Of a stretch of 32,927 bases of DNA, positions 5,001 through 32,927 are shown piece by piece. The position numbers were made by a program, and so were the translations under genes. This DNA comes from an archaeon (GTDB taxonomy: Archaea; Hydrothermarchaeota; Hydrothermarchaeia; JALTZZ01). The stretch is taken from NCBI GenBank assembly GCA_027051165.1, contig JALTZZ010000039.1:35519-68445 (forward strand), given 5' to 3'. Under the pieces are notes generated by a model. It saw only the letters and a list, made by a program, of their open reading frames with translations. It was not told the origin of the DNA and did no database searches. Position 1 is the first letter of the stretch, and each line of letters opens with the position of its first letter.

Positions 5001-8000
5001 AACTCTGGGAACTGCACACTGCACAACAACATCTTAGACTCAAGCTTCCGGGCACACATCTACCTCAACGCCTCTGGATATTCAGATATTGCGAGAAACA
5101 TCTTAGAGAACTGGACTGATGGTATAGAAACACACAATTCACCTCATCTCAGTGTAATAAACAACACCGCTAGAGAACTGCAGAAATTCCTCAGCATATA
5201 CAACTCCAGCGATTCCTATGTGATCAACAATACAGTCACCTACATTGAGGATGCGCTTGAGGTTTACAATTCTTCCAGACTGGATATAAGCCACAATATC
5301 TTTATAAGCAACTTTATTTTCTCCACAGGAATCCTTATGGAGAATTCTAATGACAGCACAATACACACCAATAGAATAGAGGAGTTTGAAATTGCAGTGG
5401 AACTCTTCAAGTCTTATGGAAATCTGATATTCAACAACCTATTCAACATCTCTGCTGTGGCAGATAACGGAAACAACCAGTGGAACACAACAAAGAGGAC
5501 AGGGGTTAACATAGTAGGTGGTCCATACATAGGCGGGAACTACTGGGCACTGCCGGACGGCACTGGATACAGCGACGCATGCACAGATAGCGATGCAGAT
5601 GGAATCTGCGACCTCCCATACACCACTGGAAATGTGATTGACTACCTGCCCCTCGCAAGATACGACACTCAGCCGCCGCAAATAGAAATAATAGCACCTT
5701 CACAGATTGAGAAGGGCAGCAACTTCGTGCTAAACATAACAATAACAGACAGAAATCCCTCTGAGTACAACGTAACAGGGAATGGCAGTTTGATAGCCAG
5801 TGGAGGCTATATCTCCGGCACACCGATAATTCTAAATCAGCTCTATGGGTTAGACTATTTTGATACTGGAGACCTGAGCTATGAAGTTTGTGCCAACGAC
5901 AGCTACAACAACTCCAATTGCACCTCAGTTGTTGTTAGAGTTGTGGATACCACACCGCCAAGCATAACACTCTATTCTCCACAGAATATCACCTATTTCA
6001 CAGATATCATTGATCTTAAAGTCTCAGCCAGCGAGCCAGTCTCAGCATGGTGGTACTCCTTAGACGGAGGGGCAAATGTAAGCTTTACACCGAATATAAC
6101 AATAAATGTTGCACCCTCCCGAAGCCACACTCTCACAATCTATGCCAGGGATTTAAGTGGAAATGTGGGGAAGGTGAAGGTGGTATTTACCGTCGCAAAC
6201 CTCATTAGAGGGTGCATGCAGATTTCAGCACCTGGCACATATTTTGTAGTTTCGGATATACTGAACTCTTCTGCAGAAAAGTGCGTAGTAATAAGCTCTG
6301 GAGACGTGATTTTGGAGGGTGAAGGGCATGTAATAGATGGAAGAGGAGGAGACTACGGAATTTACATCTCTCCCTCACAGGGACGGCTTGAGAATGTCAC
6401 AATCAGGAATCTAACACTCTCTGAGTGGGAGTATGGGGCTTATGTCAGTGAAGTAGACAACAGCACCTTTTCAAACCTCAGCATAGAGAATGGCATCCAC
6501 GGGATGGAAGTGTGGTATGGAGACAACAACACCTTTGCAGGAATTACTTTCCTGAACAACTACGATGGTATAGGTATGTATGCAGGAGATTCAAACGTCC
6601 TCGCACACATATATGTTGAATGTTCGCCAATGCACAATGGCCCAGGTGTTTGGCTGGATCACAGCAACTACAATTTCCTGTGGAATATAAGTGTGACCTC
6701 TTGCAACGATGGAATTATCCTGGGATATTCATCTCAAAATACCCTGAGGAGCAACTCAATGATGAGCAACACCCACAACTTTGGAGTTCTTGGCGATAGA
6801 GCGGAGCATTTCCGTAACAACATAACCACAACAAATCTCGTTGAGGGAAAGCCTATCTATTATCTCCTTGACCTCTCGGGAGCCCAAGTAGTTGCAAACG
6901 CGGGCTACGTAGGGCTTGTGAACTGCTCGGATATTAGGGTAATGGACACAAGGCTCACCAAAAACTATCAGGGGGTCCTGCTTGTGGACTCCACAAACAT
7001 AACAGTTTCAAATGCGACTCTATCTCAGAACCGGTATGGGATTTATATCCGCGGGGGCTCCAACTCCACAATTGTCAAATCCACGATAGAGCACAACAGC
7101 TATGCGGGTATATACACAGACAGCTCTCCTTCTAATTACCTTATCTACAACAACCTTCTCAACAACAGTCTCAATGTGTTCAATGGAGGCAGAAACAACC
7201 ACTGGAACACCACAAAGCAGAAGGGCAGAAGCATAGTTAACGGCCCATTTATAGGAGGAAACTACTGGGGCAAGCCAGATGGCAGGGGCTACAGCGACAC
7301 ATGCTCAGATAATAATGGAGATGGAATATGCGACTCCCCCTATACCCTTGGCACTTATGTAGTAGACTACTTACCTTTAACCTTTGAAGTTAAGCCACCC
7401 GAAATAAATATAATATCTCCGCAGAGCAGAGAATACACCTCTCCACCCTTGATAAATATCTCCACCATGGATTTAAGTGGCATCTCTTTAGCTACTGTTG
7501 AGGTTGACAATAGGGTTAATATCACCCTTAGTCTTATCAACGGCTATTATCTTGGCAACCTCTCTCCCCTATGGCCCGGGAAGCATCTCCTCAGGATATA
7601 CGTCTGGGACAGCTTAGGAAATGGGAACTCCACCCATGTTGCATTTAGCTTGAAGTCGGCTTCTCACGCAAAGGCTCACAAAAACCTAAGCTCCGGAAAG
7701 AGAGAGGTAGTAAACGAAACCCTGGGCAACACCTCTGTTGAGCTTGAGATTGCCCCTCTGGTCAATGATAGCGTTTTTATAAGCGTAAATGAGAGCACAA
7801 ATGTGAGCCAGCTTGCAAATACAACGAATGAGGAGTTTTCAGCCTTTGCAATAGCGAACAACGCTCAAGCTATAGGCAGATTTGTCAGAATTGAGGTTAA
7901 CGGGAGCAGAATAAATAACACAGCCAATCTGAGCTATGTAATTGTAAAGCTCCACTACACAACAGCAGACCTTGACAAAAATGGTGATGGCGACTATAGT

Positions 8001-9034: not shown

Positions 9035-9064
9035 TTACTACTTTGTTATAAGTATTATGTTTTT

Positions 9065-9098
9065 AACCCCCTTGTGAGATGAGTAATGCAAGGAGGTT
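9065..9098 (+). repeat. 34-base palindromic element, copy A
   Basis: AACCCCCTTG (9065-9074), a 14-base middle, then CAAGGAGGTT (9089-9098): arms pair with one mismatch. It lies 60 bases after the stop at 9005. Copy D (31183-31216) matches at roughly 25 of 34 positions including part of the loop (ATGAGT). A related but weaker element is at 25186-25218 and a hairpin with the same CCCTTGC/GCAAGGG core closes the insertion sequence at 10208-10235. It may be an IS end, a small non-autonomous element or a 3'-end signal. Confidence 0.6.
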
Positions 9099-9202
9099 AG
9101 TTTTTCTATAAAAACAAATTTTTCAAGAGAAACTCTTCATTCTTATAAAAGGACGTTTGCATTAGAAACGAGGCAAAATTTTCCAGGCGAAACGCAGAAA
9201 AA

Positions 9203-9236
9203 TTTATATAGGAGAAGGGGTATTAACCCCTTCTCC
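9203..9236 (+). promoter_or_regulatory. TATA box and 11-bp hairpin before the transposase
   Basis: TTTATATA at 9203-9210 is followed directly by GGAGAAGGGGT-ATTA-ACCCCTTCTCC (9211-9236), a perfect 11-bp inverted repeat with a 4-base loop, ending one base before the GTG at 9238. A transcript would start at about the end of the repeat, so it is more likely a DNA site (operator or transposase binding) than an RNA hairpin. The half TATTAACCCCTT resembles the reverse complement of the right end (TTATAACCCCTT at 10230-10241). Confidence 0.55.
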
Positions 9237-9237
9237 G

Positions 9238-10224
9238 GTGATAGGCATGAAACAGCCACTAATTCCATATTTAGCTCATCCTACGTGGATAATCTTCAAT
9301 AACATCATAAATCTTTTTGACAGAAAAACGGTAAAGAAGGAGATGACTAAAGCAGGGATAAAACCTGTCAAGAGAGCGGCATTGATGATTAGAATAACGC
9401 TAACAGCGATATTCTTTGAGAGAAGCGTAACAGAGGTAGTAGAAGAGCTTAAAAGGAATGAAGAGCTTAGAAGAGTCGTTAGAGTTGCAGAAGTCCCTTC
9501 TACAGATGAGATATACAGCTTCCTCAGCAGATTCAGCGAGGATCAGTTCATAAAGCTTTTATCAGTTATAAACAGGTTTATTAAGAGGAGCTCGGTAAAG
9601 CTCCTCGATACTACCGATGTAAATCTGTTCAGAGAGCAAAAAATATAAATGGTGCTATGCTTTAGGCAAGGGGTTCTATAAAGGCTACAAGCTCGCTTTA
9701 GTCGTGGAATATCCTTCTTTAAAGCCCATAGGGGTTTATCTATACGAAAGATCGCCAAACGACTCAAAACTCTTCCTTAAAATCGTTAAAGACCTTAAGA
9801 AAAGAAGAGTTTTGAGAAAAGGTGATAAAATAATAGCCGATAAAGGATTCTGTGCTCAGAAAAACTACTGGAAAAGCATTATGTGGTATAAAATTCTCCC
9901 TTTCATATTTCCTAAGAGAAATCTGAACGTTAAAAGGATTAAGGGAAGATTTACTTACCCCTTTAAAGCCCTTAAGGATAAAGAGACTTTATGATAAACT
10001 CTTTTCCTCTTTCAAGAGCTTCCTGAACTCTTGGGAGAATTTTAAAGCCATTAGGAGCGTTGTCGAAGATGTGTTTAAGGTTCTCAAAAATTCTCTCTTT
10101 AAAGAACTTACACAGATATTCTAAGCGCTCTGTTATAAAGTTCGCAGCCTTGAGTGTCCTTTTATTAGGCATATCTATGGGATTTAACAGCAAGGAGAAA
10201 CTCCAAGCCCTTGCTGAGTCTTGA
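9238..10224 (+). pseudogene. IS4-family DDE transposase, broken in four frames
   Basis: Joining four frames gives a transposase of about 325 residues. Piece 1 (9238-9640) carries the N-terminal region and LLDTTDVNLF with the first catalytic Asp. Piece 2 (about 9645-9990) has WCYALGKGFYKGYKLALVVE, the DSKLF segment and IIADKGFC with the second Asp. Piece 3 (about 9990-10110) has AIRSVVEDVFKVLK with the expected Glu of the R-x3-E-x6-K signature. Piece 4 (about 10110-10224) has SKRSVIKFAALSVLLLGISM and ends at the original stop TGA 10222-10224. The first break is one extra base in an A-run near 9641. Start is GTG 9238 or ATG 9247. All three catalytic residues survive, so decay is recent and due to frameshifts rather than substitutions. 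No intact copy is in this window to supply it in trans. Confidence 0.82.
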
Positions 10225-12276: not shown

Positions 12277-15200
12277 TTGAGAAACTCCTCCAATAAAAAT
12301 TTTCGACATATATTTTTAAATTTCTTGGACTTGGGAAAGAAATTTTTCATGATTCTTCTGCTTCTATTATCCACCCCGGTTTATGCTTCAAATCTTCCTC
12401 ACGATATTTTTAAAGGAGAGAAGATCCCGGTAAAGGAAGGTAAGCATTCTCCTGCCTATATTGTTGGTCTAAATTATACAGAAGAGGATTTAAAAAAGGA
12501 AATCGAGTTAAAATACACATACAACATGAATACATTTTTGGAAGATTTAAATAGGGATCCCGTAAAAATTTACTATTATATAAGAAACAACTTCGATTAT
12601 CAGCCATATTATGGAAGTTTGAAAGGTGCGGAAGGGACTTTTCTTGAAAGATCTGGAAACGATTTAGATTTAGCAAACTTGCTTGTAGAACTCTACAGAG
12701 AGCTTGGAATTCCAACAAAATATGTTCATGGCAATATTATAGTTTCAAAAGAATCCCTTTCAAGGATTTTTGGTGTGGATATCAACAATGTTGAGAGGGT
12801 TTTGAGATCTGCAATGATTCCATACAACAAAAGCGGGGCAAACTATGTAGTAGATCACTTCTGGGTAGAAGCTTACATAAATGAAACGTGGATACCTCTC
12901 GATCCTTCCTTTAAGTTCTATGAGTATGTAGAACCGTCTATAACTATGGAAGAACTTGGACTCAACACAACAAATCTCTCATATAGAGTTACAGGGGTGA
13001 TAAAGACTAATAATAATACTATAACTACCTCACCCATAACATACGATAAATTCCCAGAGTTATCTTTTGATTTTCTATATGGATTGGGCGGTAACATAAC
13101 AGATATCGTAGAAAAACAAATTGGAGACCTATCTAAACAAAGTATATATGGTATTATAAAAAAATATGATAAATTCAGGAAAAACTTCTTGGGAAGCTGG
13201 AGAATTGTTCCAGAAGACAAGTCTGCCTTTCCAGAGAGGCTACCTTATGAGGTGCACAGTGTCATAGAGGAGTTCTCTTCAATTCCAGAAAAGTATAGGT
13301 ATAAAATAAAGATAAATGTTGACAGTGCAGGACTGGAAGTAGTGTTTAATACAAGTAAAGTTGCGGGGAAAAGAATAGTTCTCACATATGTTCCTTATAA
13401 CGAAAGCGATGCTGATATAATAAACTCTTATGAAAGTATAGAGGACGTTCCAATAGATAAAGTATATATATCGCCAGTATTAATGGTGGATGGTTATCCC
13501 AAAGCCTTTGGAACGAAATCAAGACTCGGTGAAAAAGCAAATCTTACGATAAGTATTTTTATTGGAGAAAAATTCTTAGGAAATGACACAACAAAGATAA
13601 CATTGGGGGGAGATTATGCAGTAGGAATGAACATGCAAAGAGTAAGTGAGCAGCTTCTTAGCTATAGGATAAACAGGTTAAAAATAACGAATTTTCTGTT
13701 TGAGAATGGATTTAGGAATATTACGAGGGAAGAGATTGTTGGAGAAATACTAAACATAGTTTCTTTGATATACTGGTATAAACTTGACAGCTATGCGGAG
13801 AGAATTGCTGGTTATTCCAAGATAAGGTTCTTTAGGGCACCTTCAATACTTGTTGTTGGAAGTGCATACAACGTTAGCAAAAATAGGATGAAATTGATTG
13901 GAATGTTCATAGATATACACAGAGATTACTATGTGCCTATTGCAAACGATTCAGAGGCTGAAAAAAGATTTATGATAATGACAGGATTAAAAGGTGCTGA
14001 ACTCGAAGCTGAAGTCATAGAGAAGCTTACAGGAGTTCCAGCCATCTCTACTGGAAAGATATTCAGCATTGCAAGAGATTTGAATATACCTATATACATC
14101 GTGAACTCCACAAATGTAAATACTACTCTTCCCCTCCTCAACATAACCATTGAAGATAAAAGTGCGATAAAAAAAGCGGTTTCCAAGGGATTGACTGTCG
14201 TAGTTCCAGCAAGAAATGTTGTTATTAATCGCTGGAAGGGCACGGGTTTCTACATGATAAACGAGTCAAGCGGTGCAATGGCTTACATGATAAGCGGTGG
14301 AATAAGGGGAGGACTTTCAATTTCGGAGTACATAAAAAAACAATTAACCTTAAAGAAAAGACTTGAAAACTTGTATGATAATCTTGCTAAAACAGAAGCT
14401 GGCAAAAGGTTTTTGAAAAAGCTTCCCGGAGTTAATATTCTCGTTAGTCAAGCCGAGAATATTATAACAGCGGTTTTTGAGCTTTATTATGCAGAGCCGT
14501 GTGAAAGAGCAATGATAGCATCTCAAAAGATTGTAGATGTTTTGGTAGATTTAATTGGTGATGTAATATCGGATACCGTTGGCATGGAGATAACCTTAGC
14601 TGAAATTACGGTCTCAAGAACAGTAATAAACGATTTCAGCATAGATTTCATGGATACAATAAAAGATGCCATTAAATCGTATGCAAAGGAAAAGCTTGGT
14701 ATAGACAATTTGCTTGCTAATTGTCCGCAACCATCTATTCTTATTCGTGAGCGGAAAGAACCAATAAAAATTCCTCTTGGGGAAAAAGTAACATTTAGAG
14801 CATTTTTAATTTGTAACTATTGGGCTATGAGCGGAGAAAAGGCATATAATCCTTTAATATGGGTTATACCAAAAGAGGAGAATAGACCTTACGATCTCAT
14901 AACGAGAATAGAGCCGCACTCGGGAGCAACGACTTATGGATGCGACAGGGTTATGGTAACTATAGATACGAGTTTTATTGAAAAATGGGCAAAAAGAGGA
15001 CATGGAGAGAAAGCAATGGACATTCTCCTTAGCGAAATCGGAAAGGACAATACTGGTCTCTACATCATATCAGTAATATCAAACGATCCATCCAAGCCAG
15101 TAGAATATGCTGCGGTTCGGTTTGTAATTACTCAAAACAAAAGCATTGTTAAGGTAGACGAAAGTGCATGGCTATCTTACAAAAAGGGTGGGAGTGATAA

Positions 15201-18200
15201 GGACTATGTAAAAGTTTTAAATCTTGGTCTATCTCCGATAAACTTGTCTGTGAAGCCAGAAAAGATATCAAAATTGGGGATTGAGATAAAATATCCAAAA
15301 GTAATAGATCGTGGGAGTAGCGGATTTATTGAAATAACTTCAAAAGGAGCTCCTGTAGGAGATTGGAAAGCAAAAATATCTGTTATTGCTAAAATTGGAA
15401 ACGAAACAATAGTAAAAGATGTATCGATTAGAGTTCATGTATATAAAGAGGATAAAAACAAAAATGATCAACCAGAACCCAGACCTGGAAACGATCATCC
15501 AGATGATAACAGCGATGTTCCAAGAACGATACTATCAAAAGAAAACAACATTTATACAATCCTCAGAGAAGGTATAATCAATAATTTAAGCGTTGCCTAT
15601 GATATATATAAGTTAATCAATTATTTCAATAACATAACACCAGTTTATACTAAGAATGAATCTTTCAATTTAGTGGAGAACGTTTCAATGATATATAATG
15701 CTCTTTCTGCAAAACTAAATGTTAAAGAGTTCGAAGAGAATGCTGCAAGCGTTGCTGTGCTTAAGAGAGGGTTCTATGTGGGAGCATCTAACATCCTTTC
15801 TTCAGCAAGAATACCCCATACAATTGTTGAGGATTTTGATCCCGTTAAGCTTGCAAAGACAAAGAAGGTGTTAATAATACCATCTGGTGGTCTTTTTGGA
15901 GCAAAAACTAAAATTTTTAAGGAAAAGTTAAGAAAATATTTGGAAGAGGGAGGAAATATTATTGTTTTCTCCCAGCAGTTTGGTAGAGATTATGAAATAC
16001 TTCCTCTCTCTCCAAGTGGGGTTGGCTGGGCTGAGGATCAGATGTGCTTCATAAACTCTCTCTATGTAACTCAGGATAATCCAATATTCTCCTCTATAAC
16101 AAGAAACATTATAAGTGAGGAAGTAGATGGATACTTTGACAGGTATCCAGCAACATCTGTTTCCCTTTTAAGCAGGACGAAGAATCACTTCCCTGCAATG
16201 CTCATGTATCCATACGGTAAAGGATACGTTATTATCTCAACTCTTTATTCTGACTGGAAGAGTGAACAGAGAGAACCTTCTGAATTTATAACCTCGGTAG
16301 TTAGGGACATGGTTGCATATATAACATTAAACAAAGATGTTTATGAGATAGGATTAAAAAAAGCTTGGCGGGGTCTATACCTTCCTGAAAACAATTATAC
16401 AATTCCAGTAAAAATAGATAATCCCGCCAAAGAAAGTGCTGATAAAATAAAATTCGTGCTTATATCTCCAAGTGGTAAAATATCTAAGATATTTGCTGTA
16501 AATGAAACCATAAAAAATAAAACATCGAAAATTGTTAATATAACAATTCCAAAGGATTACTTCTCTCCAGAGCTTGGAATATGGATCCTTGACTACATGC
16601 TCATGAAAGGTGGGGATATCATATATACAAAATACAATGCAAAGGGAATTTCTTTAAACCTATACAAGGACAATGATTATTTATTTAACTATGCTGGAAA
16701 GGAGAAGTATCTTGTATGGGCAACATCGAGTAAAGAAGAAGCAAAGCTTGGAGATACCATAAATATAACATTCCATATAATAAACAAGGATAATAAATAT
16801 TTGAACGGAAGTCTCGGAATCGGAGATCACGTTGTTAGATACGGCTGGACCGTGCATGAAGCTAAAAACGTAAGCATTCCTCCAAATTCCTACAAAAAAT
16901 TTGTTTTTGAATTAAAAATGCCGCCAAAATTATACGATCATACTCTATATAATATAAAAGGAGCTAATGGCATAACTTTCTACTTAGGATTTTATAAAGA
17001 TAGATCTGCATATAAAGGAGAAGGAGACTTCATTGATGCATTTCTGCGTGCTGAAAAGGGGGTAAAGATAAGACTACCTAATATATATGCTGAAGCAGAG
17101 TTCGCAGATAAAAAAAGAGAATATAAACCCGGAGAAATATTAAAGCTAAACATCAACCTCAAAAACAACGATGCTACAGACTGGGAGCTTAAGGTAAAAG
17201 CAGGTGTGTATAAGTATAAGCGTGGTTCTATAGTTGCAAATTCAACTGTGGTCAATATTTCAGCCGGCGAAACGAAGAACATAAAAATTGATTTAAAACT
17301 TCCGAACACCTTAGAACCGGGATCGTATAGTGTGGAGATAGATGTTTTTGAAGAAAGGAGTAATGCAAAAATAGCTTCTGATTATTTAACCTTTTCAAGA
17401 GAAGAGCCAAAGGTTGTAGTTAAACCTTCTTTATTGTTCAACCCTCCATATCTAAACCTTGATATAAACATAGAAAATAACATAACCCTTTCAAACCCTA
17501 TTCTTTATATTATTCATGAAATTTCAGAATATGCTGGAAATTCAAGTATAAAAACATACAAATACAATCTTACATTTAAAAACTACAGAAACACAACAAG
17601 ATTGCCAATAAGCTTAGATGAGGAAAAGTTTGCAAAGCACGTTTTCAGATACAGTATTGTGGAGGGAGCGGAGAAATATAAACCGCTTTCTGCAGGTTCC
17701 CTTACATTTGACAGAAAAATAGTGGTATACTACCCAAAGGTTTCTTTCAGCGGCATTGGAGGGGATATGCTAAATCTATCTGTAACCTTAGAAAATCCAA
17801 ACCAAATTTCCGAAACTTTTGACGTAAACATCTCAATTCCCGCAATTCCTTACACTAACGTATCCACGATAAAGATTGATAAAAAGACAAAAATAACTCT
17901 GAACTATAATATAAATGTTCCAAAGCTATCTAATGGTAGCTATTCTATTGTAGTAAAGGTTCAGAAAAATAACACATATATAGAGAAAAAAACAAGATTT
18001 TATATCAAAGATTCATATCTTTATGGTTACATACCCTATTCTCTATACTCCGCGAGAGATAATGCCACCGCATACGTTATTAATAAAGGCGGTGTTGATA
18101 CCACGGCAAATGCAACGTTAGGTATATGCAGAGGTAACGCTTTTCTGGCTAAAGAGAATTATATCCTAAAAATACCAGCCAATAAAAGAATTGCCATGAA

Positions 18201-21200
18201 TATAACAATTCCACAAAATATTACTCCGGGATTTTTCCTCTGTTTGAATGTAACGGATCTTAGAAATATGAAGAAGTTTGAAAAGAAAAGTAGGCTTTAC
18301 TTAAGAGGGATTAAGTTAGAGGCTGAATTAACGGAACCTATATATGCTGGAGAAGAAGCGATTTTATCTATTAAGAATGTAGGTGGAATAAGCGATAGAG
18401 CAAATATAACGGTTAAGTTGTTTAAACCATTCTTCTACAATCCAATTGTTAAAAAAGAATACAAGGATGTTCCACTTAACCTCGGTAGAGCTATAAATCT
18501 CTCTCTGCCAATACCAGATAACTTGGGTGGGGATTACAAACTGGTGATAGATGCTGATGGAGAATATTCAACAGATTTCTTAACTCTGTGGATTAAAGTT
18601 TTAGGTTTCAATTTATCCGCGATCGTTGAAAAGAACGCATACAATGCTGGAGATTCAATTGAAGTGCTTCTTAAGAACAGCGGTGGCGGGCATAAAAATA
18701 TAACAGTTTCAGCTCATCTGAAAAATGGCAATTTATTATACGAATTAGGAAGCAAAATTGTTGAAATAGGAAAACTTGAAGAAAAGGTTGTTAGCTTCAA
18801 AATCCCAGAATACACACCTACAGGCACCTATGTTCTTTATGTTAACTATGAGGGTAAAACATATTCAAAAGTTGTAAATGTAAGTGGTCTTGAGCTTGAA
18901 ATTAGATTACAAAGAGATAGTTTTGATGTAGATGAAGGTATAAACCTAATTATAAACAACACAGGAGCTTTAAATGCAAAATTGCTGATAAACTATGCCT
19001 TATCATACTACTATAGAGGAAGCACAACCCTTGAGATTGGTGCGGGAGAGTCAAAGAACATAACATTATCCGTGCCGAAATACATTTCAAGCGGGTATTA
19101 CATTCTAAATACTGAAATTAAGGATTTAAACACAAACAGAACATTTTATGATACATTTAAAGTAAAAATAAGAGGATTTGAATTGAATATTGGAATATAT
19201 AAGACAAATATAATTACTGGTGATAATTTAACTGTCACTATTGAAAATATTGGTGGTTTAAATCTTGATCTTGATATTACTTTAAAATTAAATGATAATG
19301 TTTTAAATAAGAGTGCTAAACTATCCAAGGGAGAAAAGAGAGATTTAGTATTTCAACTGCCTCTTCTGCCAAAAGGGGAATATGATGTGGAAGTAGTAGC
19401 TCAAGATAAAGTATCAAATAGAACTTTGAAGAAGATATTTAAAATAACAGTAAGCGGATTTAGAATAGATGCAAAACTAAACAAAAGCAACTTTACATCT
19501 TTAGAAAGAATAAATGTAACATTTATAAACGAAAATCCAAACGTAGATGCAGATTGTAGTTACGGTGTCTACCTTATAGATTCTTTTGATAAAAGCTTCT
19601 ACCTTGGCAGTGGGGATATAAGAATACCCAAGAATGGAAAGAATTATACAGAGATTGATTTAAAAGAAGGACTTGCAAGCGGAAGATACAAATTAATAAT
19701 AAATTTGGTAGAGAGGAACACCGGTGAAAGATTTACTATTACAAAAGATGTGCAGATAAAAGGTATAGAAAGCAAAATCAATGTTCAAATGCCGAAGAAT
19801 GCTTTTTACGATGATCATTTAAATGTAGATGTGGATGTTGATCAGAGGGGAATTGTAAAGGTGCAGGCTGGAGAGGAAATAAAGCACTACCCCTATGGTA
19901 TAGGAAATATAGAAAAAGAAGGAGAAGACTTATGGATATTTTTCAGAGAAATGCTCGGTTTATACAAAGATGGAAAGTTGACAGCATACTACTATCCTAC
20001 ACACGAAGTTGGATGGTTCGAAAGCGACTATATACCAGCATTAGTTACAAATAGTAAAGTATTTTTAGCAGATTTCCATGGAAATCTTCTGGTATTTAAT
20101 AAAATCTCCAAATCTTGGAATATTTATAACAACTCAAATATTTTGGGATATCCAGAAATGGGATGGCATGCTGGTATAACATCCATAGAATACTACAACG
20201 GAAGTATATGGATAGGATTTTATGGAAAGGGGCTTGTAAAGCTTAATTTTGATGAAAAGAATGCAGAGGTCTATAATACATCCAACAGCTTACTACCTTC
20301 TGACTGGGTGTTTGATATTGAAAACGATGGAAAAAGTCTCTGGATTGCTACAGATAGAGGCATTGTAAGGATAGATTCTACTTGGAAAGTTTGGAGCCCA
20401 TCTCAGCTGAATGTAACTGGGATAAAGGATATAGAGATCGTAAATGGAGATGTATGGATAGCTGGTGATAAAGTTTGCAGGATGTTTGGAGAATGCTATT
20501 CCAGCCAGCTTCTGAGCAGCAGCATAGATAGAATTGTGCATGACAATGTATCTTTATGGATCATATATGCCCCATGGAGCGGTGTAGAAGGGGTAAGCAG
20601 GTTTTACTTTGGAAACAAAACATGGGTGCATGTATATAAGAACAGTAGCATTCTCGGAGACCTCATAGATATAGAGGATGGGATCTATGCTACAACGAAG
20701 TATGGTATTATAGAAGATGGAGTTAATAGAGTATTCGGACCGAGAAGTAGTATAAATGATGTATTTTATGGGGACAAAGTATATGCAAGCTCTATGTATG
20801 AAGGAATAAGCATATACGATCCGAAAAACGAAAATTGGACATTCCTCTCCTCCGGTGTGTTTAATTTTGCTGACAATATATTCTACAATGGAAAACTGAT
20901 ATTTTCAAGTAAGGATATATATGGAAGTGATGTGCTTGTAGTGTATGACTTCCAGAACGTAACCATATACAATTCATCAAACTCCCCTCTAACGTCCTCA
21001 ACCTACATACGAAGCATAACTGGAAATGAAACAACGATATATTTGGGAACGTCTAAAGGCTTGATCATATACAATATGAATAGCGGTGTTTTTACTTTGC
21101 TTAATACAGAAAATTCAAACTTAACGAACGATAATATTTATTCCATCTACTTGTATGGAAATGAGCTATGGATTGCCGACTCTTCAGGAGTTGGAGTGCT

Positions 21201-24200
21201 GAACCTTAACAGTGGGGAATATCATAGATATATAACGGACTCTTCTAAGGAAGTTTTGGCGGATGAAAACAACATATATATAATAACGAGCTCCAACAAT
21301 TTGTTGATATATGATAGAACTACTGGTAAAAAGGAAATATACAACTCAACAAAAGGTCTCTTAGAGGATTGCATCTACGATATTGACATTTTAAATAAAA
21401 AAATATTTATAACATATTGCTCCGGCAATAAGATTTCCGTTTTTGATAATAAAAACTGGAGACACCTAAACATAAGAGCACTAAGCGTTTCTGCAGGAGA
21501 AAGAAGTGTTGCATTTGGAAATAGTGGGCTTTCTATTTATGAAAGCTACAATTTTGAATATAATGTAAATCCGGGGGTAAATAAAATAATAATTGAACCA
21601 CCGCACAAAGAAGGTAAAAATATCTTCAGATTCTATATAATTTCAGAGAAAGGACAGCTACTTAACGAAACGGCGAAAGATATTTATCTCTATAAGAGGA
21701 ATATAGAAGCAAAAATTATCAGTAATAAGAACGTATATAAGAAGGGAGAAGAAGCTGATATAAAAATTTTAATAGTAAATCATGCACCAATAGCAGATAA
21801 AATTAAATTTAATTTAAGCATCGAGGGAAATATTTACACAAAGGAGGTTGAAATACCTGCTACGACTTCTTATATATATGAAGTCAAGCTTAAAGTAGAG
21901 AAAAATTTGACAGCAAAGTTATCCTTGTTAGGTAGAGAAATCCTGAAAGACATAAAAGTTGTAGAGCCCAAAGCTATTATAGATGTTGAAATACCGGAGG
22001 TTGTTTCTCTCGATCCGTTTAACGTTACAGTTTGGATAACAAACATAGGAGAGGTAGAAATAAATGTCTCTGTTGATGTAGATGGAGAGAAATTTAATAA
22101 AATAATTTTACCGGGGAATTCGGATTATATAACCAAATCCATGAAAATTTCTCAAGATAGGAACGTAACAATAAAATTGAGTGGAGATATTGAAAAAGTT
22201 TTAACAAAAACAATAATATTGGGAGAAAAAGTAGATGTAATATTCAAGCCGAAATACGTAATTTCCCAAAATGAAAATGAGATAACGGTTGATGTAGTTA
22301 ATACTGGTGTTCTTGATTCTGCCTTTAATTTATCCATATACGGAAATTATACTACTAACTTGAGCATTTATATTTCTGCAAAAGAGAATAAAACTGTTTA
22401 TATACCGGTTAATCTTTCAGAAGGAAAACATGTGCTCTTTTATAAATCAAAGTTTGGAAATGGTAGCTTCATTGTTGAAGTTGTAAGAGAAAAATTAGAT
22501 GTAAAAGCTAAGGTAGTCTCACTCGGATATGGAAAAATGAGAGCATATATTAATGTGGAAAATATTGCCCCAATAGAATTCTTTGGAGTGTTGGAGGTAA
22601 TGTCGCCAGTTTCATACAAAAAAACCAGCATCAATATTAAACCTAATGACAACAAGACGTTTATATATGAATTTGAGGGAATATTTGAAGAGAGATTACA
22701 GAACCTAACTGTAAGAATACTCAAAAATGGAAAATTGCTAATCGAGAAAGATTTCGGATTTGTAGCGAATCCCGTCTATATTGTGGCTATAAATGCTAAA
22801 GATACTTATAAAATTGGAGAGTTAATGAAAATTATGGTTGAGATATCAAATGTAGGAGATTCTATTGGAAAAGATGCATTGCTTCTTGATATACCCGGAA
22901 TATACAGAAACTATACGGAAATAACTATAAATCCTAAAGAAAATCTGAGTTTTAATTTCTCTGTAAAACTCCCAGAAGATCTTCCAACAAAAGACATGAG
23001 GATCATAGCAAGTATTGAAAATATATCTGTAGAAAAGAAATTTAAATTGACTGGTATAAATTTAACTGCACGAGCTTATTTGGACAAAGAAGTGTATTCT
23101 AAAAACGACAATCTAACAATATACTTGAACATTAGCAACAACGAAAATGTTAGTGTAGAAGGCAATATAACTATATCCTGTGGGGATATTGAAAAAGTTG
23201 GAAGTTTTATACTTAATGAGTATCAAAGTAAAATATACTCTTTCAGTCTTCCTGTTTGCGAGAGAATTTTCTACAATCTAATGCTAAATTCTGGGAGACT
23301 GATCGAGATTTCCTCTCTACCCGTCAATATTCTGCAAAACAAAACTGTTGCTGTTTATACAGATAAGAATAAATATAAAATAGGGGAGAATATGACAATA
23401 TTTGTAAACGTTGGGTCTCCAACGCTTGTTTCACTTTCGATTTTTGGGAATCAGACGATATTGGATGTAACAGATAATACATCCGTTTATATGGTTGTGC
23501 CGGATGTTCCCAGCGGAACTTATGAGATATATTACGGAATTCCCGGAGAAGGAAGTTTTGTATACTATTTTGACGTGTATTCGCCTAGCGCTAAAGTGCT
23601 CTCTTTTGTTCCGAGTAAAGATGTCTTTTACCCGGGAGAAAAGATATCATTTTATGCAAGGATATATTCTGATGAAGATATTAAAGGAAAAATAAGGATG
23701 TGGCTCTATAATAATGAAAATTCCTTAGTTGATTATGATGAAAAACTTATAAATTTGAGCAAGGGTGAGAATGTTGTAAATATTTCCACGAATTTCTCTC
23801 TCCCATCAATGGGAGATTACTTTATCCTCTATGGTATATATAGGGGTTTAAATTCCACATTAATAGCTTCAGGCATTCAAAACTTAGAAACTGCCGGTCC
23901 TTCAATTGTATCCATAATAACAGATCGTCAGAAGTATTATGAAAATGAAAACGTGACTTTTAACATTACACTTTCTGGAAATGGAAAAGCAAATATAACA
24001 ATCTACGGAAAGGAAAAAGTTTTAGAAAAGACTATAATTTTAAACAATACCAATACGCTTACATATATTATACCCGCCAGCAAAATTGAAATGTCACTAA
24101 AAGCTGTTCTTGTTTGGGGTAATAGCTCTGCTAATAGAAGTATTTTCTTAGATATCATTAATCTGCCTCCAATAGTAGATTTTAAATATGAAAAAGGTTA

Positions 24201-25143
24201 TGCAAATGAATATATAATATTTGATGCATCCAATACCTACGATCCCGGAGGGGATGAGCTTACCTTTGTTTGGGATTTCGGAGATGGAAATATAACAACA
24301 ACGAGTAATAAGAAAGTTGCACACAAGTTTTCGGAGGCTGGAGAGTATATAGTCACGCTTAAAGTTATTGATGAAGACGGAGATTTTTCCACACTCACAA
24401 AGAAGGTTGTTGTATCAAGCAAGCCGGTGTCGGTTGCACCTATAACGGGAGTTGGCATAGAGAGGGTATATGAAAAGATTTTAACCAAAGCTGAAAAGGG
24501 AACGTTTGCGGAGCTTCAGCTTGACCCGGAGAAAGCATCAGAGTTGCTATCTGTGAATATAAAACCCACAGTATCTCTTCACAATGTGAAACTAAAGGTG
24601 GAACATGTCAATAAGCTACCGAGCAGTGTGGCAGAGCCTAAGGGAGTTGTATATAGGTATATAAAAATAACTCTAAGCACTTCAGCTATAGAAGAAGCTA
24701 AGATAAAGTTTAGAGTATCTGTGAAGTGGTTAAGAGAGAATGATGTTAATCCAGATACCGTTAAAATGCTGAGATATACTTCTGGAAAATGGGAGGAGCT
24801 TCCTACAAAATTAATCAAAATCTTGGATTCTGATTACATAGTCTATGAGGCATCTACAAGGGGCTTTTCATATTTTGCAATCATAGGTGAGAAAGGTTCT
24901 GGATTTAAGCTGGAGGAAGAAAAGAAACTCGAGGAAGAGAAGCAGTTAATTAAAAAGCAAATAGTTGAAAAACCTACGGAAAAAACGCCCAAGCAACCCT
25001 CAACAACAGCTCCTACACCAGAAGTGCAGATTCAGAAAGCAGAAAAACCCATATTCTTCGTTAAGGTCATGCTTATAGTCATACTTGTTATATTAATAAT
25101 AGTATTAATAGTATTCTATTACTATACCATTAAAAGGCGCTAA
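12277..25143 (+). CDS. 4288-residue surface protein: inactive transglutaminase-like fold, GATase-like, CARDB repeats, propeller, PKD, PGF-pre-PGF, TM anchor
   Basis: The start is TTG with GGAGGT 6 bases upstream. A signal peptide (FFMILLLLLSTPVYA) ends near residue 37. Residues about 100-210 are transglutaminase-like, of the kind found before YD-repeats in bacteria; the Cys position is D129 in SGNDLDLANLLVELYRELG, while H194 (DHFWVEAY) and D209 (PLDPS) remain, so no thiol chemistry is expected. About 590-690 continues that family (MAYMISGGIRGG). After an acidic linker (1066-1080) comes a class I GATase-like domain (about 1080-1355, VLIIPSGGLFGAKT, YLEEGGNIIVFSQQFGRDYE) with no nucleophilic Cys seen in the expected elbow. 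CARDB/NEW3-type Ig repeats fill about 1355-2520 and 3100-3960, separated by a beta-propeller (about 2525-3090; LWIATDRGIVRID, IWIGFYGKGLVKL). A PKD domain (3963-4048, FVWDFGDGN), a PGF-pre-PGF domain (4052-4205), a charged linker and a membrane helix with a KRR end (about 4258-4288) finish it. The protein is an extracellular, membrane-anchored scaffold or adhesin by inference. Confidence 0.88.
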   Translation: MRNSSNKNFRHIFLNFLDLGKKFFMILLLLLSTPVYASNLPHDIFKGEKIPVKEGKHSPAYIVGLNYTEEDLKKEIELKYTYNMNTFLEDLNRDPVKIYYYIRNNFDYQPYYGSLKGAEGTFLERSGNDLDLANLLVELYRELGIPTKYVHGNIIVSKESLSRIFGVDINNVERVLRSAMIPYNKSGANYVVDHFWVEAYINETWIPLDPSFKFYEYVEPSITMEELGLNTTNLSYRVTGVIKTNNNTITTSPITYDKFPELSFDFLYGLGGNITDIVEKQIGDLSKQSIYGIIKKYDKFRKNFLGSWRIVPEDKSAFPERLPYEVHSVIEEFSSIPEKYRYKIKINVDSAGLEVVFNTSKVAGKRIVLTYVPYNESDADIINSYESIEDVPIDKVYISPVLMVDGYPKAFGTKSRLGEKANLTISIFIGEKFLGNDTTKITLGGDYAVGMNMQRVSEQLLSYRINRLKITNFLFENGFRNITREEIVGEILNIVSLIYWYKLDSYAERIAGYSKIRFFRAPSILVVGSAYNVSKNRMKLIGMFIDIHRDYYVPIANDSEAEKRFMIMTGLKGAELEAEVIEKLTGVPAISTGKIFSIARDLNIPIYIVNSTNVNTTLPLLNITIEDKSAIKKAVSKGLTVVVPARNVVINRWKGTGFYMINESSGAMAYMISGGIRGGLSISEYIKKQLTLKKRLENLYDNLAKTEAGKRFLKKLPGVNILVSQAENIITAVFELYYAEPCERAMIASQKIVDVLVDLIGDVISDTVGMEITLAEITVSRTVINDFSIDFMDTIKDAIKSYAKEKLGIDNLLANCPQPSILIRERKEPIKIPLGEKVTFRAFLICNYWAMSGEKAYNPLIWVIPKEENRPYDLITRIEPHSGATTYGCDRVMVTIDTSFIEKWAKRGHGEKAMDILLSEIGKDNTGLYIISVISNDPSKPVEYAAVRFVITQNKSIVKVDESAWLSYKKGGSDKDYVKVLNLGLSPINLSVKPEKISKLGIEIKYPKVIDRGSSGFIEITSKGAPVGDWKAKISVIAKIGNETIVKDVSIRVHVYKEDKNKNDQPEPRPGNDHPDDNSDVPRTILSKENNIYTILREGIINNLSVAYDIYKLINYFNNITPVYTKNESFNLVENVSMIYNALSAKLNVKEFEENAASVAVLKRGFYVGASNILSSARIPHTIVEDFDPVKLAKTKKVLIIPSGGLFGAKTKIFKEKLRKYLEEGGNIIVFSQQFGRDYEILPLSPSGVGWAEDQMCFINSLYVTQDNPIFSSITRNIISEEVDGYFDRYPATSVSLLSRTKNHFPAMLMYPYGKGYVIISTLYSDWKSEQREPSEFITSVVRDMVAYITLNKDVYEIGLKKAWRGLYLPENNYTIPVKIDNPAKESADKIKFVLISPSGKISKIFAVNETIKNKTSKIVNITIPKDYFSPELGIWILDYMLMKGGDIIYTKYNAKGISLNLYKDNDYLFNYAGKEKYLVWATSSKEEAKLGDTINITFHIINKDNKYLNGSLGIGDHVVRYGWTVHEAKNVSIPPNSYKKFVFELKMPPKLYDHTLYNIKGANGITFYLGFYKDRSAYKGEGDFIDAFLRAEKGVKIRLPNIYAEAEFADKKREYKPGEILKLNINLKNNDATDWELKVKAGVYKYKRGSIVANSTVVNISAGETKNIKIDLKLPNTLEPGSYSVEIDVFEERSNAKIASDYLTFSREEPKVVVKPSLLFNPPYLNLDINIENNITLSNPILYIIHEISEYAGNSSIKTYKYNLTFKNYRNTTRLPISLDEEKFAKHVFRYSIVEGAEKYKPLSAGSLTFDRKIVVYYPKVSFSGIGGDMLNLSVTLENPNQISETFDVNISIPAIPYTNVSTIKIDKKTKITLNYNINVPKLSNGSYSIVVKVQKNNTYIEKKTRFYIKDSYLYGYIPYSLYSARDNATAYVINKGGVDTTANATLGICRGNAFLAKENYILKIPANKRIAMNITIPQNITPGFFLCLNVTDLRNMKKFEKKSRLYLRGIKLEAELTEPIYAGEEAILSIKNVGGISDRANITVKLFKPFFYNPIVKKEYKDVPLNLGRAINLSLPIPDNLGGDYKLVIDADGEYSTDFLTLWIKVLGFNLSAIVEKNAYNAGDSIEVLLKNSGGGHKNITVSAHLKNGNLLYELGSKIVEIGKLEEKVVSFKIPEYTPTGTYVLYVNYEGKTYSKVVNVSGLELEIRLQRDSFDVDEGINLIINNTGALNAKLLINYALSYYYRGSTTLEIGAGESKNITLSVPKYISSGYYILNTEIKDLNTNRTFYDTFKVKIRGFELNIGIYKTNIITGDNLTVTIENIGGLNLDLDITLKLNDNVLNKSAKLSKGEKRDLVFQLPLLPKGEYDVEVVAQDKVSNRTLKKIFKITVSGFRIDAKLNKSNFTSLERINVTFINENPNVDADCSYGVYLIDSFDKSFYLGSGDIRIPKNGKNYTEIDLKEGLASGRYKLIINLVERNTGERFTITKDVQIKGIESKINVQMPKNAFYDDHLNVDVDVDQRGIVKVQAGEEIKHYPYGIGNIEKEGEDLWIFFREMLGLYKDGKLTAYYYPTHEVGWFESDYIPALVTNSKVFLADFHGNLLVFNKISKSWNIYNNSNILGYPEMGWHAGITSIEYYNGSIWIGFYGKGLVKLNFDEKNAEVYNTSNSLLPSDWVFDIENDGKSLWIATDRGIVRIDSTWKVWSPSQLNVTGIKDIEIVNGDVWIAGDKVCRMFGECYSSQLLSSSIDRIVHDNVSLWIIYAPWSGVEGVSRFYFGNKTWVHVYKNSSILGDLIDIEDGIYATTKYGIIEDGVNRVFGPRSSINDVFYGDKVYASSMYEGISIYDPKNENWTFLSSGVFNFADNIFYNGKLIFSSKDIYGSDVLVVYDFQNVTIYNSSNSPLTSSTYIRSITGNETTIYLGTSKGLIIYNMNSGVFTLLNTENSNLTNDNIYSIYLYGNELWIADSSGVGVLNLNSGEYHRYITDSSKEVLADENNIYIITSSNNLLIYDRTTGKKEIYNSTKGLLEDCIYDIDILNKKIFITYCSGNKISVFDNKNWRHLNIRALSVSAGERSVAFGNSGLSIYESYNFEYNVNPGVNKIIIEPPHKEGKNIFRFYIISEKGQLLNETAKDIYLYKRNIEAKIISNKNVYKKGEEADIKILIVNHAPIADKIKFNLSIEGNIYTKEVEIPATTSYIYEVKLKVEKNLTAKLSLLGREILKDIKVVEPKAIIDVEIPEVVSLDPFNVTVWITNIGEVEINVSVDVDGEKFNKIILPGNSDYITKSMKISQDRNVTIKLSGDIEKVLTKTIILGEKVDVIFKPKYVISQNENEITVDVVNTGVLDSAFNLSIYGNYTTNLSIYISAKENKTVYIPVNLSEGKHVLFYKSKFGNGSFIVEVVREKLDVKAKVVSLGYGKMRAYINVENIAPIEFFGVLEVMSPVSYKKTSINIKPNDNKTFIYEFEGIFEERLQNLTVRILKNGKLLIEKDFGFVANPVYIVAINAKDTYKIGELMKIMVEISNVGDSIGKDALLLDIPGIYRNYTEITINPKENLSFNFSVKLPEDLPTKDMRIIASIENISVEKKFKLTGINLTARAYLDKEVYSKNDNLTIYLNISNNENVSVEGNITISCGDIEKVGSFILNEYQSKIYSFSLPVCERIFYNLMLNSGRLIEISSLPVNILQNKTVAVYTDKNKYKIGENMTIFVNVGSPTLVSLSIFGNQTILDVTDNTSVYMVVPDVPSGTYEIYYGIPGEGSFVYYFDVYSPSAKVLSFVPSKDVFYPGEKISFYARIYSDEDIKGKIRMWLYNNENSLVDYDEKLINLSKGENVVNISTNFSLPSMGDYFILYGIYRGLNSTLIASGIQNLETAGPSIVSIITDRQKYYENENVTFNITLSGNGKANITIYGKEKVLEKTIILNNTNTLTYIIPASKIEMSLKAVLVWGNSSANRSIFLDIINLPPIVDFKYEKGYANEYIIFDASNTYDPGGDELTFVWDFGDGNITTTSNKKVAHKFSEAGEYIVTLKVIDEDGDFSTLTKKVVVSSKPVSVAPITGVGIERVYEKILTKAEKGTFAELQLDPEKASELLSVNIKPTVSLHNVKLKVEHVNKLPSSVAEPKGVVYRYIKITLSTSAIEEAKIKFRVSVKWLRENDVNPDTVKMLRYTSGKWEELPTKLIKILDSDYIVYEASTRGFSYFAIIGEKGSGFKLEEEKKLEEEKQLIKKQIVEKPTEKTPKQPSTTAPTPEVQIQKAEKPIFFVKVMLIVILVILIIVLIVFYYYTIKRR

Positions 25144-31109: not shown

Positions 31110-31182
31110 CCATTTACTAAAATAAAGAAGCCTAATTTATCCTTTTCTAAATGCAGTGCTCAGCATGTTATAAAGTGTTATA

Positions 31183-31216
31183 AACCCCCTTGCAGAATGA
31201 GTGATGTAAAGGAGTT
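31183..31216 (+). repeat. 34-base palindromic element, copy D
   Basis: AACCCCCTTGCA (31183-31194) and TGTAAAGGAGTT (31205-31216) flank a 10-base middle, with three clashes in the arms. It matches copy A at 9065 closely, including AACCCCCTTG and ATGAGT. It also starts like the reverse complement of the IS right end (TTATAA(A)CCCC(C)TTGCAGA), so it may be a solo IS end. It lies 74 bases after the ABC operon. Confidence 0.6.
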
Positions 31217-31251
31217 AAAATGGCAAACATGTTTGGAAATATATCGGCAAG

Positions 31252-31273
31252 GTTACCAACGAGTTACCAACGA
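31252..31273 (+). repeat. Tandem 11-base direct repeat
   Basis: GTTACCAACGA occurs twice back to back. It lies 33 bases from the tRNA fragment, on its 3' side, where integrase arm sites or replication slippage could explain it. Confidence 0.7.
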
Positions 31274-31495
31274 CTTCTGAAAAAGGCAAAATTTCAGAAA
31301 AAATCGCGGGCCCGGGGGATTTGAACTCCCGACCAAGGGATTAAGAGGCTCGGATTTTCGTCCCGAAGAGTTACTAATACTATTAGGAACTTTGCCTATA
31401 AGCTTCCACTTCTGCTTTAGTTTGCCATTTTCACGAACATATCTAACCTCATAGAGATATTCTTTACCTTTGACTTTTTTCCTAACCAGAGCCAT
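31253..31495 (-). pseudogene. Integrase N-terminal-like fragment running into the att site
   Basis: Starting at the ATG 31495, the first 42 residues read MALVRKKVKGKEYLYEVRYV then RENGKLKQKWKLIGKVPN. Similar short basic beta-rich segments begin some archaeal integrases and some transposases. The frame then passes through the tRNA fragment (EPLNPLVGSSNPPGPRFF) and stops. An SSV-type integrase that carries its att site inside the gene would leave exactly such an N-terminal piece at one element border after integration. The C-terminal part is not here. The alternative is an unrelated small ORF. Function as a protein is unlikely. Confidence 0.45.
31306..31347 (-). other. tRNA-Lys(CTT) 3'-half fragment, probable integration (att) site
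   Basis: On the minus strand the sequence reads as a tRNA from the anticodon loop CTCTTAA (anticodon CTT) through TCCCT, TGGTC, the T-arm GGGAG-TTCAAAT-CCCCC and an acceptor end GGGCCCG. Upstream of the loop there is no matching anticodon stem, D-arm or 5' acceptor. This is the classic part of a tRNA copied into archaeal integrase attachment sites. The T-stem has one A-C clash and the C-run seems one base short, so the copy is probably slightly decayed and not functional as a tRNA. Confidence 0.7.
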
Positions 31496-31613
31496 GATGT
31501 AATATTAATCTTTTCGTAGTAATAAACCTTATGTAACTCTGATTACTTAAAGAAGCTTTCTTTAAATCCTAATAAAAATAATTTTTGAACTTTTATCTTT
31601 AAGATTGTTATTT

Positions 31614-32096
31614 TTAGATTTCCCCAGCTTCCCGTAGAACTTTATAAACCAAATCGTTACTTATCCAGAAACCATTTTCTCTTAGCATTTCAATGTTTTT
31701 CTTCAGGCTTTTGATTAATCCCATTTTCTTAGCTTTAAGCAGAATTCCAATGGTTCCAGCAACTTTTAATCCTAAGCTCTTTGCTATCCTTCTGACTTCA
31801 GCTTCATCCATTAAGTTAGCTTTAGTCTCAAGAGCCAAAACTATGGCTTCAGCCTCTCCATCATCTAAGAGCATTCGAAGAACTTTCTTAAAATTCTGAT
31901 CTTTGATTTCCCGAACTTCAATCCACTCTGAACTTTTTATTTCTTTTGAACCAGCTTTATTTTCGAATGTGCACTCTTCATAAACAGCTTTTGGGATAAT
32001 AATTCTGCCAAAAATTTCCTTTAACAACAATAACTTTCCAATTCTTGAAAGATGAATAAGAATTGAAGAGTTACTCACGACTAAATTCGATATCAT
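31614..32096 (-). CDS. PIN-domain toxin (DUF3368 type)
   Basis: The 160-residue protein has the PIN fold layout of DUF3368 toxins, which are predicted RNases: VVSNSSILIHLSRIGKL at the start, IPKAVYEE (E40, E41), LLDDGEAEAIVLALE (E81) and LMDEAEVRRIA (D97), then GTIGILLKAKKMG. The first acidic position is Asn (N9), a change that is common in this subfamily, so activity cannot be judged. The ATG at 32096 overlaps the upstream antitoxin by 26 bases, the usual coupling of such pairs. It lies inside the probable integrated element, where it would favour retention of that element. Confidence 0.82.
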   Translation of the reverse strand: MISNLVVSNSSILIHLSRIGKLLLLKEIFGRIIIPKAVYEECTFENKAGSKEIKSSEWIEVREIKDQNFKKVLRMLLDDGEAEAIVLALETKANLMDEAEVRRIAKSLGLKVAGTIGILLKAKKMGLIKSLKKNIEMLRENGFWISNDLVYKVLREAGEI

Positions 32097-32328
32097 CTTT
32101 TAAATCCTCTTCATAGTAGTGTCTATGAATTTTTCTTTTAGCCAATTCATCAATAAATTCTGTTTTTGAAAGTCCAGCTATTTTCCTTGCTTGACCCAAA
32201 GATAAGTAACCTTTTTGATAAAGCGTAATAGCTAATTCTGTTTTTATAACTCTTTCTAAGTCTTTTTCAGGAATTTTCATTCCCAAAATAATTTCTTCTG
32301 GGACTTCAATCTGAATAACTTTTCCCAT
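32071..32328 (-). CDS. UPF0175-type antitoxin
   Basis: The 85-residue protein carries the UPF0175 pattern: an N-terminal strand VIQIEVPEEI, a helix with ELAITLYQKGYLSLGQARKI and AGLSKTEFIDELAKRKI, ending in HRHYYEEDLKDDIEF. Members of this family pair with DUF3368 PIN proteins and bind DNA to repress their own operon. The acidic tail would neutralise the toxin. Start ATG 32328 is probably leaderless or nearly so, because the TATA box lies about 25 bases upstream. Confidence 0.85.
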   Translation of the reverse strand: MGKVIQIEVPEEIILGMKIPEKDLERVIKTELAITLYQKGYLSLGQARKIAGLSKTEFIDELAKRKIHRHYYEEDLKDDIEFSRE

Positions 32329-32489: not shown

Positions 32490-32519
32490 CTCACAGCTGT
32501 GAGGAAATGAATTTATAAG
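32490..32519 (+). promoter_or_regulatory. Operator-like palindrome and TATA box of the winged-helix gene
   Basis: CTCACAGCTGTGAG (32490-32503) is a perfect 14-base palindrome followed after 8 bases by TTTATAAG (32512-32519). This is where a regulator acting on archaeal promoters would bind. The downstream gene is itself a winged-helix protein, so autoregulation is plausible. Confidence 0.55.
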
Positions 32520-32533
32520 CTGCAAAGATAGGC

Positions 32534-32927
32534 ATGAGGAGAGGTGAAGAGAAAGGTGATGAGAGGTTAGTTAACAATCATCAGCATACCATTATAGTAA
32601 CAGAGAACGTGGCAAAGGTCATCAAGTTTCTCTCTGAGAATCCATACACTACCCATAGAAGAATATCAGAGATAACTGGTATAAAGAGATCAACAGTAAC
32701 AAAGATTATAAATAGGCTCGAAAGAGCTGGCTTATTACGTAGAGAGATGCTATCACCTACGGGATTTAGATTCAGAGGCGGCTACAGATACATAGTAGAT
32801 CCAAGGTTACTCGAGGTCGTGGAGAAACGTAGAGGTTTGTCGAGGTTCACCTGCATAGTGGACAGAGAAAGCGGCGAAATTAAAGTATTATCCAGAGCTG
32901 ATGCCAGAAAAATTAAAAAGGCAAAGA
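32534..32927 (+). CDS. Winged-helix (MarR-like) DNA-binding protein, runs off the window end
   Basis: From the ATG at 32534 the frame is open for 131 codons to the last base, so the 3' end is missing. Residues about 24-70 form a winged helix (VAKVIKFLSENPYTTHRRIS, EITGIKRSTVTKIINRLERA, GLLRRE), a wing follows, and the basic stretch after it (PRLLEVVEKRRGLSRFTCIV) is of unknown function. TATA box TTTATAAG lies only 15-22 bases before the ATG, so the transcript may start at or inside the first codons and the true start could be later, such as the GTG at 32609. It is divergent from the toxin-antitoxin pair and probably part of the integrated element. Confidence 0.72.
   Translation, partial: MRRGEEKGDERLVNNHQHTIIVTENVAKVIKFLSENPYTTHRRISEITGIKRSTVTKIINRLERAGLLRREMLSPTGFRFRGGYRYIVDPRLLEVVEKRRGLSRFTCIVDRESGEIKVLSRADARKIKKAK

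Follow-up and report, generated by a model that had tools for sequence, protein, structure and literature searches.

A probable attachment junction of an element with an SSV-type integrase at a decayed tRNA-Lys(CTT) 3′ half in an archaeal genome

Results

A tRNA-Lys(CTT) 3′ half forms the core of the junction

The stretch of DNA analyzed here, referred to as the window, comprises 32,927 nucleotides (G000:C39:35519-68445, wherein G000 is the genome of the archaeon itself, assembled in 171 contigs). Near its right edge, which is the contig end, lies what is very probably the attachment junction of an element whose SSV-type integrase gene was split at tRNA-Lys(CTT). The element would lie to the right, with the intact tRNA and the C-terminal side of the integrase on contig C60, and an earlier element reading the tRNA in antisense would have used the same core.

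Nucleotides 31307 through 31347 (minus strand) constitute the 3′ half of a tRNA-Lys(CTT), from the anticodon loop to the acceptor end, and no whole tRNA is detected in the window by ARAGORN. An own-genome DNA search matched this core to an intact tRNA-Lys(CTT) gene (C60:55085-55158) with an E value of 1.4e-13, which excludes a chance match. The alignment has 40 identities in 42 columns; one base is missing and another is mismatched (A in place of G in the T stem), so the fragment is decayed and not a fresh duplicate. When the core was scored against 14 tRNA genes, Lys(CTT) ranked at the top (37), followed by Lys(TTT) (34). These data confirm the border at a tRNA-Lys 3′ half that an earlier sequence-only reading had proposed, and the second copy of its bases predicted by that reading exists only once elsewhere in the genome, within the intact C60 gene.

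Other parts of the window include two very large ORFs, 12277-25140 and 2070-9002 (4288 and 2311 amino acids, respectively), and an insertion-sequence copy at 9064-10160. Contigs C127 and C145 have ends that are found again in the window (at 10160 and 43), and such repeats probably broke the assembly.

A type-1 integrase N-terminus reads into the core

The ORF at 31253-31495 (minus strand) reads into the tRNA core, and its portion from 31348 to 31495 represents the N-terminal part of an SSV-type integrase gene running in the tRNA-sense direction, herein called IntN type 1. Residues 1 to 43 are 91% identical to the N-terminus on contig C65, which carries this region in its entirety and shares 224 bp at 100% identity with contig C146. 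On C146, a single 362-amino acid frame proceeds from the type-1 IntN tail (17 residues matched in a protein search) through a tRNA-Tyr-like core to an SSV-type PF16795 catalytic domain. The earlier suggestion that an integrase-like N-terminal ORF enters the core is therefore borne out, because the family to which the ORF belongs is continuous with a catalytic domain. By using window positions 31206-31595 as a query, we obtained 13 DNA matches in the same genome, the nearest DNA copy of the window IntN being 83% identical; the protein search with this IntN gave six matches, and copies reside at five further places.

Kinship of IntN to arm-binding domains is only weakly suggested by the profile matches. 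The Pfam family Arm-DNA-bind_4 was matched below its cut-off (E 0.011-0.058) and SSV1_ORF_D-335 at E 0.13. The predicted structure of IntN is a three-stranded sheet (pLDDT 85), for which a fold search of the PDB returned no fold at E ≤ 0.001. Matches of the IntN profile to PDB entries involved short stretches of beta-repeat proteins and were set aside. The 362-residue C146 protein, modeled without an alignment, gave an unusable result (pLDDT 33).

To the right of the core, the element carries a PIN-like toxin gene (DUF3368; 31614-32096, minus strand; PF11848, E 5.7e-15), a UPF0175 antitoxin gene (32071-32328, minus strand; PF03683, E 4.9e-25), and a winged-helix gene of MarR/HTH_24-like type (32534-32927, plus strand; PF13412, E 3.2e-10) that runs off the contig. 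Because the window stops at the contig end, the far end of the element is located elsewhere.

A second integrase N-terminus enters from the host side

The sequence-only reading had missed a second integrase N-terminus, NGKHVWKYIGKVTNELPTTSEKGKISEKIAG, which enters the same core from the host side (31217-31306, plus strand) and is truncated on its 5′ side. This type-2 IntN fragment is 89% identical to contig C81 at the DNA level over window positions 31217-31350, and on C81 the type-2 IntN runs antisense through an Arg(CCT) core toward a catalytic domain, with one in-frame stop and later deletions. Similar type-2 IntN sequences abut tRNA-Thr (C62) and tRNA-Ile (C127). The idea that these two contigs each hold two different IntN sequences was rejected, because both matches represent one type-2 gene. 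By homology, both ORFs converging on the window core are integrase N-termini, and two such scars on one core imply that two elements used the site. The whole type-2 element is missing, and thus its former presence rests on a fragment of ∼90 bp.

The truncated fragment abuts a sequence resembling an insertion-sequence end (31180-31216), and beyond this end, to the left of the type-2 IntN, the integrase homology stops. The same motif (≤6 mismatches in 25), with differing flanks, recurs at window position 9064 and a further nine times in the stretches of this genome that were examined. This insertion-sequence-like end is the probable cause of the type-2 IntN deletion.

A candidate far end on contig C60

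An intact tRNA-Lys(CTT) plus an integrase C-terminal fragment had been predicted for the far end of the element. On C60, the intact tRNA gene is followed by the type-1 sequence VTNTLGLGVTNTLNNFCNPIHEYGNDF, which is in the same reading phase that the window IntN has through the core; aligned with C65 over 176 bp, this side shows 89% identity and hence is also of type 1. The prediction stands with regard to the tRNA and to an integrase remainder of matching form and phase. It falls short in that the remainder ends ∼30 codons beyond the core, where unrelated sequence begins, and the catalytic domain is gone. C60 and C39 are separate contigs, no contig spans both, and none of 18 contig ends provides an overlap linking them, so that we only infer that these two contig ends belong to one element. 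Synteny at tRNA-Lys was not found in the two genomes of the same order.

Upstream of the C60 tRNA, on the host side, lies a 677-amino acid ORF that by eye appears to be a membrane pyrophosphatase. On the downstream side we found two toxin-antitoxin-like pairs, one AF2212-like with PIN and the other PIN_2 with a small partner lacking a confident family. These pairs are packed into 3 kb by the C60 attachment site (L014 9300-12141), and another pair lies at the window end.

At C60:55159-55290 (L014) and C65:2160-2330 (L009), the core and the C-side arm-like motifs (see below) are kept, and the integrase is lost right after GGGAATGACTTT. Such attachment sites without an integrase possibly belong to non-autonomous elements.

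One integrase family occupies many tRNA genes

Members of this integrase family are present at eight intact tRNA genes of the one genome and at the Tyr-like core. Integrase C-sides follow, in sense, tRNA-Lys(CTT), Gly(GCC), Arg(GCG), Lys(TTT), Arg(TCT), and Arg(CCT), and type-2 IntN sequences lie antisense against Thr(GGT) and Ile(GAT). The Tyr-like core, named from its anticodon loop GTA, is present in C65 and C146; no intact tRNA-Tyr carrying that half was found in the genome, and a match on C24 lies in a tRNA-Thr. Contigs C61 and C29 have antisense cores of other subfamilies.

Nine PF16795 catalytic domains, all over the cut-off, are encoded in the genome, none of them on the contig of the window, and the catalytic profile A1 finds the SSV1-type integrase structures 3uxu, 3vcf, and 4dks (E 6.5e-21 to 2.9e-20). 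The attachment site on C146 lies in frame inside the integrase gene. Among named integrases, that of Archaeoglobus profundus pleomorphic provirus 1 (ApPV1) comes closest, with 35% identity (E 4e-34), and related integrases exist in 10 of the 198 genomes searched, the own genome counted. One of these settings (G028:C8; L067, 1-20000) holds two tandem 8,724-bp units, 99.2% identical, at tRNA-Lys(CTT); where they join, the integrase gene is whole, and the units carry a prim-pol and an integrase with a CcdA-like N-terminus.

Scanning a genome contig collection with the integrase alignment gave 117 pattern matches, none of which was confirmed. A viral contig collection yielded no match to either the integrase alignment or the Lys core, and a plasmid collection yielded none to the window site.

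Arm-like motifs flank the cores

In 322,646 bp of the genome we counted 28 occurrences of the motif GTTACYAAYR, every one of them ≤70 bp from a core. This number compares with 8.5 expected by composition and five for the reversed pattern. Note that the motif was defined on these sites, such that its presence there is not independent evidence, whereas its absence elsewhere is. It is found at 12 of the 14 core loci, the exceptions being C61 and C29.

The arrangement of the copies is regular within each type. On the type-1 N side they form an inverted pair, and the C-side copies are direct, with a spacing of 24 or 12 bp. Type 2 has a direct pair 11 bp apart whose copies are in different reading frames, and therefore the motif points to DNA and not to protein. 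The type-1 inverted pair and the type-2 direct pair are both present in the window. The inverted pair lies within intN at 31370-31390, in the manner of a P arm, with one copy mutated (GTTCCTAATA, minus strand) and intact counterparts on C65 and C146. The direct pair of GTTACCAACG, 11 bp apart (31252-31272, plus strand), is an intact arm-like site of the type-2 element. From this placement we infer that the GTTACYAAYR motifs may be arm-type sites bound by the integrase. Arm-like direct repeats were not found at the cores of genomes G119 and G028.

We also considered a type-1 palindrome, CATACACGAGTATG, as a second genome-wide operator (see below) and rejected it: exact copies occur only in the five type-1 integrase genes, and at ≤2 mismatches the counts were 7 and 15 versus 9 and 7 for the control.

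A palindrome marks the element side

A 14-bp operator-like palindrome, CTCACAGCTGTGAG, is located at 32490-32503, and a TATA-like box begins 7 bp past it (32511-32520, plus strand). This is the sole site in the window at ≤2 mismatches, and thus the palindrome occurs once in the 1.6 kb to the right of the core and is absent from the 31.3 kb to its left, in agreement with the earlier placement of the element at higher coordinates. With ≤1 mismatch, there are 181 copies in the genome and none of the reversed pattern. The palindrome is present in 28 of the 150 genomes searched, among which, besides the own genome, only G013 (10 copies) and G017 (six copies) exceed two.

The link of the palindrome to elements was assessed at seven borders, for which the element side had been fixed beforehand from the integrase. 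There were 16 sites in 24.7 kb on the element side versus one in 79.1 kb on the host side; because the sites are not fully independent, the p value of 1.4e-9 serves as a guide. This count omits C62 (no site in 17.4 kb) and C127 (one site, on the element side), as well as C65, C146, C81, C61, and C29, which offer no clear host versus element side. On C145 and C76, the palindrome lies inside the integrase gene, just ahead of the C-terminal part. Contigs rich in the palindrome carry genes for a T2SSE ATPase, a HerA/TraG-like ATPase, ParA, TFB, and an SPFH protein.

The position of the palindrome relative to neighboring features suggests an association with promoters. A TATA-like box (≥7 of 10 letters) starts within 20 bp, on the better side, at 60 of 98 distinct sites, compared with 30% of 2000 random places having the same score, and at 29 of those 60 sites the spacing is exactly 7 bp. 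On six element contigs, a frame of ≥60 codons starts 15-60 bp away from 40 of 68 sites, the distances peaking at 29 bp, versus 31% of 3000 random places (p 4.6e-6). Genomes G013 and G017, which belong to another family of the class, also have site-bearing contigs on which the sites are clustered, and many of these sites keep the same spacing to TTATAAGC or TTAAAAGC. The best matches of their proteins on the site-bearing contigs are homologues 36-50% identical to proteins on the corresponding contigs of the own genome. Thus, many predicted element promoters, including that of the winged-helix gene in the window, have this site in common. For a leaderless archaeal transcript, the TATA-like box would be rather close to the start codon, and consequently the position assigned to the box or to the start codons may be wrong.

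Separately from these data, we observed on contig C162 an element-encoded TFIIB-like factor (L094:10687-11349) with a palindrome site at its end (10683).

Discussion

Proposed history of the junction and its alternatives

An SSV-type (“suicidal”) integrase carries the recombination site inside its own gene, and the junction would have arisen as follows. An element reading the tRNA in antisense would first have integrated at tRNA-Lys, after which a type-1 element would have used the same core at the tRNA, displacing the first element and splitting its own integrase gene. The N-terminal part and a spare tRNA 3′ half would thereby have been left at this location, with the toxin-antitoxin pair and the winged-helix gene to the right. 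The intact tRNA and the C-terminal side of the integrase would be at the far end on C60, the catalytic domain having been lost since. The antisense element would later have been deleted down to its ∼90-bp IntN fragment, presumably with the help of an insertion sequence. The order of the two integrations given here is the simplest one.

A junction with two IntN sequences might instead derive from recombination between two elements (attP with attP or attL, or homologous) and not from successive integrations. Strand exchange within the shared core, between a sense and an antisense site, would yield an identical IntN-core-IntN junction, and the C81 type-2 IntN, the close relative of the window fragment, is part of a complete integrase-like gene that lies apart from its tRNA. 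However, this route requires an antisense element with a Lys(CTT) core, and only antisense Arg(CCT), Thr, and Ile cores were observed among the other type-2 copies. We therefore judge it rather unlikely, although it deserves consideration.

Successive integration by itself would place the DNA to the left of the type-2 IntN inside that element, and so everything that the window holds on this side, including the dpp-type transporter operon, might be cargo of the type-2 element and not host chromosome. This is improbable given that no second core exists on the 68-kb contig, that the left-hand 31.3 kb is devoid of the palindrome, and that the type-2 IntN is cut at the insertion-sequence-like end where the integrase homology ceases.

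A chimeric joint produced by the assembler at a repeat is a concern with an assembly of 171 contigs, particularly since C146 ends inside IntN in the sequence that it shares with C65 and since the C127 and C145 ends recur in the window. Nevertheless, at 83% identity to the nearest DNA copy the window IntN is too diverged to have been collapsed, and the flanks of the core each have their own distinct, decayed sequence, making such an artifact very improbable. Finally, a mere tRNA pseudogene with an accidental ORF and no mobile element, an idea that draws on the decay of the tRNA fragment and on a short ORF unrecognized by Pfam, is scarcely credible and is already refuted by the sister copies, as IntN recurs at five further places, beside tRNA cores, with arm-like motifs and a matching far end on C60.

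Relation to known integration systems

We regard the border as a further case of a known integration scar that is set apart by its arm-like sites and its double scar. Earlier publications (PMC8371274; PMC6563490) already describe self-splitting integrases and their scars as well as target switching and tandem integration, and SSV1-type (“suicidal,” type I) archaeal integrases leave int(N) and int(C) scars, as stated in sections of a review (Badel et al. 2021, PMC8371274). As in the accounts given there, the site resides in the integrase gene, the gene is split on integration, the core is a tRNA 3′ half, the catalytic domain is of the PF16795/SSV1-like type, and relatives use many tRNA genes. 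Unlike the SSV1-type systems described in those sections, the present family has GTTACYAAYR repeats that flank the core inside the gene, sense and antisense variants in one genome, and two IntN sequences on one core. The terms “arm-type” and “arm-binding” gave no hit in the review, and a literature search for arm-type sites with SSV2 showed no paper on them among the matches listed.

A precedent for one integrase family switching among tRNA genes is the pT26-2 family, whose Thermococcales integrases have 14 tRNA targets according to part of the same review (PMC8371274). That set comprises many plasmid integrases, whereas here eight intact tRNA genes of one genome are involved. A partial tRNA is likewise a product of integration in Thermococcaceae, where such tRNA gene fragments pose an annotation hazard, as noted in passages of van der Gulik et al. 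2023 (PMC9897764).

The Archaeoglobus pleomorphic proviruses ApPV1 (BK065154) and AvPV1 (BK065155) resemble type 2 in that their integrase region by eye starts with an antisense tRNA T-arm-like stretch, and we accordingly dropped the antisense reading of the tRNA as a novelty. They differ in having structural genes beside int, none of which were noticed in the present elements, and GTTACYAAYR was absent from the 180 bases inspected in each.

A tentative shared regulon

We tentatively propose, with some doubt, that a genome holds several of these elements, distributed over its tRNA genes by target switching, and that they might run as one regulon via CTCACAGCTGTGAG at their promoters. The palindrome could act in operator- or stoperator-like silencing together with cross-immunity, or it could be a promoter signature for an element TFB or activator. 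A literature search for the letters of the palindrome gave no matches, and searches on archaeal operators, stoperators, and immunity showed none among the results listed. The operators and stoperators of mycobacteriophages, as presented in part of PMC9283540, are likewise one site repeated across an element genome. Unlike mycobacteriophage stoperators, the archaeal palindrome lies just upstream of a TATA-like box and is common to many elements. If it silences, it would be relevant to the question of lambda-like immunity in archaeal elements, for which no account had been reported according to passages of the 2021 review (PMC8371274); studies of the phage phiH immunity genes are among the references of that review.

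The single genome analyzed here preserves apparent intermediates of target switching, namely sense and antisense variants, two elements on one core, attachment sites without an integrase, and an intact copy, and it therefore offers a direct test bed for how integrases change tRNA specificity. Contig C146 (L013), on which the SSV-type integrase is whole as far as the contig reaches, is element-like and by eye carries a PCNA gene, a nuclease-like gene, and a multihaem cytochrome.
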